A stretch of 64,000 nucleotides of DNA from Nostocales cyanobacterium LEGE 12452 (GTDB taxonomy: Bacteria; Cyanobacteriota; Cyanobacteriia; Cyanobacteriales; Nostocaceae). Below the pieces are notes generated by a model. It searched no databases. It was not told where the DNA came from and saw only the letters and a list, made by a program, of their open reading frames with translations. The DNA is taken from NCBI GenBank assembly GCA_015206945.1, contig JADEXV010000005.1:1-64000 (forward strand). Direction: 5' to 3'. Below, one piece after another: positions 3,300 through 5,464 of the stretch. Numbering within the stretch: position 1 is the stretch's first letter; each line of letters starts with the position of its first letter. Position numbers and translations under genes: made by a program.

Positions 3300-3516
3300 A
3301 TGTCATTGACTAATACGATCCATTTTAGAAACTTACGAGGCGATTTATTCGGTGGTTTAACTGCTGCGATCGTTTCGTTGCCTCTAGCGCTGGCATTCAG
3401 TGTTGCTTCCGGTGCTGGGCCTGTAGCTGGTCTTTATGGTGCAGTTTGCGTCGGCTTTTTTGCCGCCCTGTTGGTACGCCAACGTTGATCTCTGAACTGA
3501 CCGGCCAATGACCGTA
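3300..3516 (+). pseudogene. 5' remnant of a bicA-like SulP bicarbonate transporter gene
   Basis: The first ~58 codons match the start of BicA/SulP transporters: IHFRNLRGDLFGGLTAAIV, then LPLALAFSVASGAGPVAGLYG and VCVGFFAAL. After FFAAL the frame breaks. Bases just downstream still encode GTPTLISELTG in another frame, and after a further shift MTV, which is the conserved continuation in intact BicA (GGTPTLISE.TG.MTV). Similarity then ends at about 3516. The middle and 3' end of the same gene are found after sbtB (5178-5464). The remaining 62-codon open frame is unlikely to make a functional protein. Confidence 0.85.
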
Positions 3517-3632
3517 AGCCCTCTCTACAGGTTCTTGTGCAGCACCTGTGCTGTAGGAGTCAAGCTCATCAGTCTTTTTTAAAGTTCATTTATTGTAATA
3601 CTCCTCATCAGAGGAAGCGCAAGGAGGTATTC

Positions 3633-4742
3633 GTGGATTTTTGGTCACTTTTTCTAATGGACTTCATTAAGCAGTTGCAGTCCCCAACACTCGCCTTTTT
3701 GATTGGTGGCATGATCATTGCTGCCCTCGGTAGCGAATTGGTCATTCCAGAGGCGATTTGTACGATCATCGTCTTCATGCTGCTCACCAAAATCGGTCTG
3801 ACCGGTGGAATTGCGATCCGCAATTCTAATCTGACGGAGATGGTGTTACCCATGATCTTTGCTGTAATAACAGGGATTACGATTGTATTCATCTCGCGCT
3901 ATACGTTAGCCAAGCTGCCAAAGGTCAAAGTCGTTGATGCGATCGCAACTGGGGGATTGTTTGGAGCCGTGAGTGGTTCTACAATGGCTGCTGGTCTGAC
4001 GGTACTGGAAGAACAAAAGATGGCATACGAGGCATGGGCTGGCGCACTCTATCCCTTCATGGATATCCCAGCGCTGGTAACTGCAATTGTTATCGCCAAC
4101 ATTTACCTCAACAAGAAGAAGCGTAAAGAAGCAGCCTACTATACTGAGCAGCCTGTTGCTGCTGGTGATTATCCCGATCAAAAAGATTATCCCAGCACCC
4201 GGCAGCAGTATCTCAGCCAGCAGGAGGATGCTGGGGATAACAAGGTCAAGATATGGCCAATTATCGAGGAAAGCCTCCGGGGTCCTGCCTTATCGGCAAT
4301 GTTGCTAGGTCTGGCTCTGGGACTGTTCACCCAACCGGAAAGTGTCTATAAAGGCTTCTACGATCCCGCCTTTCGTGGCTTGCTTTCGATCTTGATGCTG
4401 GTCATGGGGATGGAAGCTTGGTCAAGAATTGGCGAACTGCGTAAGGTAGCCCAGTGGTACGTTGTATATAGTGTGGTGGCACCGTTTGTAAATGGGCTAA
4501 TCGCCTTCGGTCTCGGCATGATTGCCCACTACGCCACGGGATTCAGCATGGGCGGCGTTGTGATCCTGGCTGTCATCGCTTCCTCTAGTTCGGACATTTC
4601 AGGGCCGCCTACGTTGCGAGCTGGTATCCCGTCAGCCAATCCATCTGCCTATATAGGCGCGTCCACAGCCGTCGGTACGCCAGTTGCGATCGGCTTGTGT
4701 ATACCGTTCTTCCTCGGACTTGCCCAAGCGCTCGGCGGCTAA
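3633..4742 (+). CDS. sbtA: SbtA, sodium-dependent bicarbonate transporter
   Basis: 369 residues, matching SbtA of model cyanobacteria (about 370). It imports HCO3- with Na+ across the plasma membrane as part of the CO2-concentrating mechanism. It follows the family closely: DFIKQLQSPTLAFLIGGM at the N-terminus, GLFGAVSGSTMAAGLT, GALYPFMDIPALV closing the first half, a cytoplasmic loop around residues 190-225, and SSSSDISGPPTLRAGIPSANP in the second half. An upstream extension of the frame to 3537 is not conserved. GTG at 3633 is preferred because AAGGAGGT sits at 3621-3628 and the family N-terminus begins there. sbtB follows 84 bp downstream. The pair lies inside a broken bicA-like gene. Confidence 0.96.
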   Translation: MDFWSLFLMDFIKQLQSPTLAFLIGGMIIAALGSELVIPEAICTIIVFMLLTKIGLTGGIAIRNSNLTEMVLPMIFAVITGITIVFISRYTLAKLPKVKVVDAIATGGLFGAVSGSTMAAGLTVLEEQKMAYEAWAGALYPFMDIPALVTAIVIANIYLNKKKRKEAAYYTEQPVAAGDYPDQKDYPSTRQQYLSQQEDAGDNKVKIWPIIEESLRGPALSAMLLGLALGLFTQPESVYKGFYDPAFRGLLSILMLVMGMEAWSRIGELRKVAQWYVVYSVVAPFVNGLIAFGLGMIAHYATGFSMGGVVILAVIASSSSDISGPPTLRAGIPSANPSAYIGASTAVGTPVAIGLCIPFFLGLAQALGG

Positions 4743-4826
4743 TCTCAGACGGATTGAGGTCTGTCGGCGCTTCCTTGAACGGGCAGACCAAGTAGATAAA
4801 TTACATCATTTCAGGAGGTAACCAAC

Positions 4827-5159
4827 ATGGGCAAGCGTGCCAACAAGCTCGTCATCGTCACGGAAAAGGTGCTGATGAAAAAGGTCGCCAAGATCATTGA
4901 TGAATGCGGGGCGACTGGTTATACGGTGGTGGATACTGGCGGTAAAGGCAGTCGCAACGTGCGCTCTACCGGTAAACCCAACACTGCTGACACCGATTCA
5001 AATGTAAAGTTTGAGATACTCACCGAAAATCGGGAGATGGCAGAGAAGATTGCGGATCAGGTCGCAATCAAGTTTTTCACCGATTATGCGGGCATTATCT
5101 ATATCTGTGAAGCAGAGGTACTGTACGGGAGACATTTCTGTGGGCCAGATGGCTGTTGA
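4827..5159 (+). CDS. sbtB: SbtB, PII-like regulator of SbtA
   Basis: 110 residues, full length for SbtB. This trimeric PII-like protein binds adenine nucleotides including cAMP and controls SbtA at the membrane. Visible features are the ferredoxin-like PII core, a T-loop region with [16 protein letters not shown] (about residues 38-53), and the C-terminal CGPDGC redox loop with Cys105 and Cys110, characteristic of the long SbtB form. A strong AGGAGG lies just upstream of the ATG. The gene is co-directional with sbtA and probably co-transcribed. Confidence 0.96.
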
Positions 5160-5177
5160 ATCGAGACGACGCGCCAC

Positions 5178-5464
5178 CAAATCTTTTTTGGGATATTTAA
5201 GTTGGGTAAATACATTACCCTCATGCCTTACAGCGTGATTTCTGGGTTTATGTCTGGGATTGGCGTGATTCTGATTATTTTGCAGATTGCTTCTTTTGTC
5301 GGACAGGCAAACCCTACAAGTTTAGCATTTCGAGGTTTGTACCAGAGCATTATATGTTTGTAGATCGTATAGATGCACTTAAACAAGCCGTTGCTTTAGT
5401 TAATCCTCATGCAACTTATGCTAATAATCCTGGCGTTGGTACTTACACTGACACCTATTTGTAA
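5178..5464 (+). pseudogene. Middle and 3' remnants of the bicA-like SulP gene
   Basis: Starting 18 bases after the sbtB stop, one frame reads QIFFGIFKLGKYI, then TLMPYSVISGFMSGIGVILI and LQIASFVGQANP, which is the conserved transmembrane 4-5 region of BicA. It ends near 5345, where a second block in another frame reads EHYMFVDRIDALKQAVALVN...YL and a stop at 5462-5464; this resembles the extreme C-terminus of the SulP STAS domain. The rest of the transporter and most of STAS are missing. Together with 3300-3516 this is one disrupted gene carrying sbtA-sbtB in place of its interior. Confidence 0.82.

Follow-up and report, generated by a model that had tools for sequence, protein, structure and literature searches.

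Positions 3300 to 5464 of the window, i.e., the first 64 kb (64,000 nucleotides) of contig C170 in the 8.38-Mb genome of Nostocales cyanobacterium LEGE 12452 (the own genome, G000; all positions are window coordinates), correspond to a wrecked bicA gene of the Synechocystis BicA family enclosing an intact sbtA-sbtB pair. We consider it probable that this locus represents an in-place exchange of bicarbonate transporters, in which sbtA and sbtB (sbtAB) would have been imported with illegitimate ends, and the new allele would then have spread by homologous recombination via a scar, that is, an old bicA 5' fragment (hereafter, the scrap) carried upstream of sbtA. The original prediction had proposed that one transporter was replaced by another at this locus; the bicA wreck and the transfer of sbtA agree with this idea, but the replacement was not a single local event.

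A bicA gene enclosing sbtA and sbtB

The similarity of the flanking DNA to BicA is significant in a profile search, as had been predicted. Indeed, the Pfam sulphate permease family (PF00916) matches both 3300-3485 (E 5e-11, profile positions 1-47) and 5184-5360 (E 4.5e-12, profile positions 97-139). When compared with the intact ortholog P0003 of a relative (G007, locus L041), the pieces correspond to codons 1-69, 105-178 (read past stop codons) and 519-565; at the DNA level, identity is 90% for 2954-3516, 97% for 5178-5320 and 87% for 5316-5600, the last block extending across the intergenic stretch into the antiporter gene. Native-like DNA runs to 3516 and resumes at 5178, exactly 18 bp after the sbtB stop, where the homology had been said to begin (the LGKYITL motif itself starts at 5202). 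At the sbtAB site, 93 bp of bicA (approximately codons 75-105) are absent and replaced by 1661 bp, and the downstream remnant has an internal deletion of about 1.1 kb, at which ACAAG is shared. As for the STAS-like C-terminus placed after sbtB, the 41-codon tail from 5339, searched alone, has no Pfam match, but 5318-5458 shares 85% identity with the C-terminal end of BicA. The possibility that the two SulP pieces derive from unrelated genes was discarded, since both align to one intact ortholog. This ortholog matches both the membrane domain (6ki1, E 7e-180) and the STAS domain (6ki2, E 9e-49) of Synechocystis BicA; we take these two structures, deposited as low affinity sulfate transporter, to be BicA.

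The enclosed genes are both intact, with sbtB directly 3' of sbtA. SbtA matches PF05982 (Sbt_1) over its full length (profile 1-308 of 308, E 2.3e-89) and Synechocystis SbtA (7cye) over residues 1-368 (E 1e-197), while SbtB matches PF00543 (P-II, E 2.2e-16), PDB 3dfe (E 1.7e-66) and Slr1513/SbtB (E 1.6e-55). The GC content in 400-bp bins is 0.48-0.56 in sbtA vs 0.40-0.42 within the antiporter gene, which extends the difference previously sampled on single lines.

The distribution of these genes was analyzed in 53 genomes of the genus, 18 of which have an ortholog of the antiporter at the cut-off of at least 93% identity (split across two contig ends in one case); in the remaining genomes the best antiporter matches are paralogs (about 70-74%). 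A SulP gene without sbtAB precedes the antiporter in 12/18. It has about 565 codons, and about 454 in the internally deleted G008, where bicA is in two parts; full-length BicA orthologs at the antiporter are thus found in 11/53 genomes, two of which (G005 and G020) carry a stop codon in frame shortly before the C-terminus. The sbtAB genes lie within bicA in 6/18 (G000, G006, G009, G052, G002 and G028). The search for an intact bicA elsewhere in the own genome, suggested in the original prediction, revealed only the fragments at C170, the sole other match (on C71) being 35% identical. In the same way, the six carriers yielded no second BicA ortholog of full length, and the identity of their next SulP genes does not exceed 36% (the G006 genome being 72% complete). 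As in the Microcystis genotype polymorphism, bicA, sbtA or both may be present, depending on the strain of the genus: the bicA-bearing G029 and G003 also have sbtA elsewhere, and G005 harbors an additional BicA-like gene (57%). In G004, bicA is broken (codons 1-139 and 528-566) and no SbtA of the window's subfamily is present, so that bicA can decay without a swap.

The joints and the transfer of sbtA

In the window, G006, G009, G052, G002 and G028, the right joint is identical and reads CGCCAC and then CAAATCTT; it is also found in Aff. Roholtiella LEGE 12411 (L123), which gives seven carriers in all. At the corresponding place, the donor-like loci L058, L059 and L060 read GCCACGAAAGGAA. An assembly artefact can be set aside, given that the same joint recurs in all six carriers of the genus as well as in Roholtiella.

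At the left edge, which is a hybrid, resident bicA extends up to 3451 and mostly foreign bicA-like DNA follows from 3464. This was established at 47 diagnostic sites, chosen so that one letter is common to at least 80% of 12 native genes and a different one to at least 60% of 8 donor scars. The 16 window sites from 3464 to 3545 comprise 13 donor-type ones, one native (3477), one gap and one matching neither, the last five falling in the sbtA leader, which is absent from native genes. Thus, the BicA/SulP 5' end predicted upstream of sbtA is real, but its last part (about 3464-3516) is mostly foreign and came with the cassette. The switch from native to donor type lies between 3451 and 3464 in G000, G006, G052 (where one site further left is donor-like) and Roholtiella, at 3478-3484 in G009 and at 3499-3517 in G028. 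G002 is donor-type at 38/47 sites: its native upstream DNA runs to about 15-40 bp before the position of the bicA ATG and is followed by donor-type sequence in the order promoter region (about 350 bp), scrap, leader and sbtAB. Per 100-bp bin, G002 and G028 are 89-100% identical in sbtAB and 42-83% in their left arms.

The features of the locus are reported in Table 1.

Table 1. Features of the bicA-sbtAB locus and of the neighboring genes (window coordinates)
Feature	Position	Strand	Evidence
Resident (native) 5' end of wrecked bicA, codons 1 to ~51	3300..3451	+	Native at 31/31 diagnostic sites 3303-3451
Foreign (donor-type) end of bicA 5' scrap, up to codon 74, reading frame disrupted	3464..3516	+	Diagnostic sites
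Conserved sbtA 5' leader	3517..3632	+	Hairpin ~3601-3615, Shine-Dalgarno 3621-3627; 38-sequence alignment
sbtA, predicted 369-aa Na+/HCO3- symporter, GTG start	3633..4742	+	PF05982; Synechocystis SbtA match
sbtB, predicted 110-aa PII-like regulator, C-terminal CGPDGC	4827..5159	+	PF00543; SbtB match
Donor 3' flank of sbtB, to right joint CGCCAC/CAAATC	5160..5177	+	Joint common to carriers
Resident bicA remnant: codon 106 to ~151, ~1.1-kb deletion, codon 519 to end	5178..5464	+	Alignment to intact ortholog
Na+/H+ antiporter, neighbor of bicA in relatives	5561..6976	+	PF00999, E 5.5e-70
MrpC-like gene	7221..7556	+	PF00420, E 1.4e-23 for 7221-7553; synteny in genus loci
MrpD-like gene	7553..8992	+	Synteny in genus loci

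The antiporter is presumably of CPA2 type, and we assume the Mrp names for the genes at 7221-8992, the start of an apparent Mrp-type antiporter cluster. Two repeats were also observed, i.e., a perfect 31-bp tandem duplication at 2889-2950, upstream of the bicA promoter region, and short, strain-variable TAATTCGTAA-type repeats at 5458-5520, between the bicA tail and the antiporter; for the latter, Rfam gave a sub-threshold miRNA match only.

The comparison of sbtA with the core gene der (Table 2) is in line with the phylogenetic check advised beforehand; a genome search made for this part covered 29 of 30 genomes (L058 being left out). The synonymous divergence (dS) from Nostoc parmelioides is 0.093 for sbtA and 1.35 for der, and that from Westiellopsis is 0.137 and 2.5 (near saturation), respectively. 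Because the dS of sbtA is far below that of der, these values demonstrate, at the level of synonymous divergence, a transfer of sbtA between distant Nostocales. Moreover, the genomes sharing the right joint (6/53, plus the Roholtiella record) are scattered on the core-gene tree: in the der tree, the six carriers lie among bicA strains, and the own genome is placed next to the bicA strain G050 (support 0.85).

Table 2. DNA identity (%) to the own genome at der and at sbtA
Genome	der	sbtA
N. parmelioides	79.0	96.3
Westiellopsis	76.0	95.2
Roholtiella	86.2	92.1
G052	94.2	89.4
G002	94.1	90.1
G028	93.0	90.5
G009	94.0	97.9
G006	96.2	99.0

A second exchange of sbtA within the genus is suggested by the mosaic of identity between sbtAB and its flanks. 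In comparison with G052, G002 and G028, sbtA is patchy (74-97% per bin), the bicA tail is 97-100% identical, the intergenic bin 82-89% and the antiporter 90-100%. In some pairs (also L056 vs L061), the coding sequence of sbtA is less alike than the noncoding upstream flank or the bicA tail, which suggests that exchange has recurred inside sbtA or that its diversity has some other source.

Several observations weigh against the exchange as we propose it. The exchange of sbtA with N. parmelioides and Westiellopsis may have gone in either direction. Within the genus, the dS of sbtA (0.29-0.33 for G028, G052 and G002) is close to that of der (0.28-0.32), so that divergence alone does not prove a second exchange there, and several branches of the der tree are poorly supported. 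G002 is native-type at 6/47 sites, its left joint is located only to within about 50 bp, and it could have regained a donor left arm later; a 39-codon BicA-like piece (54%) is also present elsewhere in its genome. Lastly, the loss of BicA in G006 is unproven, given that in this 72% complete genome a BicA-like piece of 31 codons (74%) lies at the end of a contig (C12).

Two further observations concern these gene families within the genus. The broken bicA of G004 (L193, G004:C46:54833-55488), a pseudogene without sbtA near a contig end, has an internal deletion resembling the one found after sbtB in the window. In addition, the own genome has a second, distant Sbt_1 gene of 324 codons (L004, on C324), adjacent to an apparent PII-like gene, and a carbonic-anhydrase-like frame stands at the start of this contig (by eye); genes of this type, about 30% identical to the window SbtA, occur in most genomes of the genus.

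The bicA scar in other cyanobacteria

The fusion of scrap and leader was searched for in 291 genomes, sampled evenly across the order, with a DNA probe joining the donor scrap to the sbtA leader. The probe has matches in 127/291 genomes, and SbtA is detected at E 1e-100 or better in 129/291. The fusion, recognized by matches reaching probe position 270 or beyond, is present in at least 11 places, in 11 genomes of four families; this is a lower bound, as at most two candidates per genome were scored. None of the other listed matches extends past position 240 (the codon-74 point). A downstream sbtA is found in all 11 places, and 19 other fetched loci hold a full-length SulP gene.

A second comparison considered 80 named sbtA loci, which among the 235 found are those nearest to the window SbtA and not an even sample. 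Of these, 77 have at least 600 bp upstream, including four carriers of the window's swap (L053, L054, L093 and L123; the first three are taken as strains also fetched as L052, L037 and L043). A partial BicA on the same strand lies within 1.3 kb upstream of sbtA in 25/77 loci, vs 0/65, 1/60 and 0/58 in control windows further upstream; on the opposite strand the count is 1/77, and then 1, 0 and 0. These near-zero controls indicate that the bicA piece is not there by chance. Two of the 25 pieces are the ends of intact genes (L097 and L102), which leaves 23/77, and in L055, L064 and L072 an intact bicA is followed by the scar. The scar is associated with a neighboring antiporter (21/23 vs 19/46, Fisher p 7e-5, the rows being not phylogenetically independent); this test leaves out 11/80 loci, three with less than 600 bp upstream and eight with short downstream ends in which no antiporter was seen. 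Since foreign scrap and leader are found upstream of sbtA in other families, an earlier loss of bicA seems to have left its scar in the donor cassette.

The insertion of sbtAB into a resident bicA also recurs. L068 (resident BicA codons 1-94, donor scar, sbtAB, BicA 486-546) and L092 (codons 1-98, donor scar, sbtAB, BicA 447-551) are two further insertions with other breakpoints, and the left-hand structures of G140 and G144 in the order sample are the same as theirs. L072 has an intact bicA upstream and a weaker BicA piece downstream (60%, E 7e-10). L057 (Calothrix NIES-4101) was not counted as an independent insertion, its downstream bicA pieces being seen by eye with no tblastn match.

A different explanation of the scar is that the scrap has been kept as a working control region of sbtA (promoter, transcription factor sites, RNA leader), its role as a recombination arm being a by-product. 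We regard this as rather unlikely, even though part of the evidence is in its favor. The scrap DNA is more alike than the fourfold-degenerate sites of the adjacent sbtA in 69/78 pairs (means 0.80 vs 0.70; 13 loci, 4 of 17 being dropped for short matches), and in 4/7 pairs (L056 with L061, L091 and L092; L059 with L092) similarity is clearly higher in the upstream flank than in sbtA, which is not clearly the case in the other three (L091-L092, L056-L082 and L056-L059). Furthermore, a recent transfer of the flank would yield the same pattern, and the scrap is frameshifted or partly deleted, down to about 13 codons in L062, L065, L089 and L094, with sbtA intact (by eye). For the scrap itself, a peptide function is unlikely, considering that most donor-type copies are frameshifted or deleted (by eye), although a single frame is kept throughout the scrap of L118 and L207.

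Concerning the leader, it is strongly conserved and stands upstream of sbtA in many of the loci L055-L131. Its hairpin CTCCTC-AGAGGA adjoins AAGGAGGTATTC; L139 and L140 have a longer one, of about 17 bp by eye, in which the changes are paired. The small hairpin (5 bp) shows weak covariation, with a double change in 2/5 pairs, and an Rfam scan of 2900-5600 gave no match near the gathering score (best E 0.13); a riboswitch is thus not supported, no family reaching the threshold and the covariation being weak. No match to the RbcR motif, allowing one mismatch, was found in 2800-3632 (consensus as given in PMC13249358).

A vertical origin, in which an ancestral bicA-sbtA-sbtB-antiporter operon such as that of Microcystis lost most of bicA by internal deletion with no transfer into the lineage, appears very improbable at this locus. 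Such operons do exist: an intact bicA precedes sbtA-sbtB-antiporter in L075, L077 and L081 (with a larger gap in L097 and L102), the Microcystis loci L067 and L073 resemble deletions of the form intact in the first three, and the donor scar itself may well have arisen in this manner. Nevertheless, in the window the bicA codons resume after sbtB, in 11 relatives the antiporter is immediately preceded by a full-length bicA, with sbtAB absent from this interval, the dS of sbtA to other genera is far below that of the core gene, and the left arm is a hybrid. Finally, the site-specific delivery of sbtAB into bicA by a mobile element (insertion sequence, transposon or integron-like) appears very unlikely: insertions in resident bicA do recur in other lineages, but their breakpoints vary (about codons 94/486 in L068 and 98/447 in L092), no transposase-like open reading frame was seen between the joints among those of at least 50 aa (translations inspected, no search made), and, in agreement with the original prediction, no repeats of at least 14 nt pair the joints (shorter target duplications were not tested), a few weak pairs occurring elsewhere.

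A possible course of events and its meaning

Returning to the in-place exchange, the following course may be envisaged. A cassette embedding old bicA 5' scrap, sbtA leader, sbtA and sbtB would have been pre-formed in other cyanobacteria beside an antiporter gene, and would have entered a bicA-antiporter-mrp locus of the Nostoc type. The first import, best preserved in G002, would have replaced bicA up to about codon 105, beginning slightly ahead of the start codon, and its ends would have been non-homologous; the rest of bicA would then have decayed by deletion. Homologous recombination would later have spread the allele among Nostoc strains and a Roholtiella, the left crossovers falling at various positions of the scrap, so that in the own genome sbtA would now lie behind the resident bicA promoter region. 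An import as in G002 followed by crossovers within the bicA scrap is the simplest order of events. As for transport, a low-affinity, high-flux Na+/HCO3- symporter would have been exchanged for a high-affinity, low-flux one, with a lower Km and a lower maximum flux, as predicted from homology; control by SbtB would have been added, and the adjacent antiporter and Mrp-type genes could recycle Na+.

Natural transformation can proceed by homology-facilitated illegitimate recombination, with a homologous anchor on one side and a non-homologous joint on the other. In the present case the process is deduced from standing genomes, and the homologous step apparently came after the first import. With respect to the Synechocystis proteins, the SbtA-SbtB pair (Slr1512-Slr1513) has full-length homologs and the same gene order in the window, where SbtB ends in CGPDGC, but its genomic context differs and the activity of the window pair is a predicted one; likewise, the intact ortholog of the relatives matches the membrane and STAS parts of BicA, whereas the own genome has only fragments with stops and frameshifts.

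According to Sandrini et al. (2014), Microcystis reportedly comprises bicA, sbtA and bicA+sbtA genotypes. The same two transporters are described there on one operon, with sbtA strains having no or an incomplete bicA (PMC4840274), and the affinity-flux trade-off has been discussed in ecological terms, with a similar diversity in Dolichospermum and Planktothrix (PMC5853874). Unlike in Microcystis, in the window sbtAB lie inside a resident bicA with remnants on both sides and a hybrid left joint, the right joint is identical in seven carriers, and gene flow has crossed genera. The available portions of PMC4840274, PMC5853874 and related open-licence literature do not describe the route by which these genes are gained or lost, and, among the titles and abstract openings listed from the open-licence bicA/sbtA literature (on Microcystis, Nostoc, transfer, fragments and operons, and pseudogenes), none concerns a bicA scar or a chimeric joint. 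Genotype variation in Microcystis and other genera is known already.

It is tempting to speculate, although we hold this as doubtful, that the bicA-antiporter address is a natural site of transporter exchange across cyanobacteria, the scrap acting both as sbtA control region and as homology arm, so that a strain might pass from high flux to high affinity in one transformation, possibly in a reversible way and repeatedly between families. How well a cyanobacterium does at low or at high inorganic carbon has been linked to the bicarbonate transporter that it carries (PMC5853874). The locus makes the route of transporter gain and loss readable from DNA, through a likely intermediate strain, several left crossovers and one right joint, and the scar would mark an earlier event in the donors. 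Lastly, bicA and sbtAB, as natural alternatives at this address, provide a defined allele pair for testing the affinity-flux trade-off.

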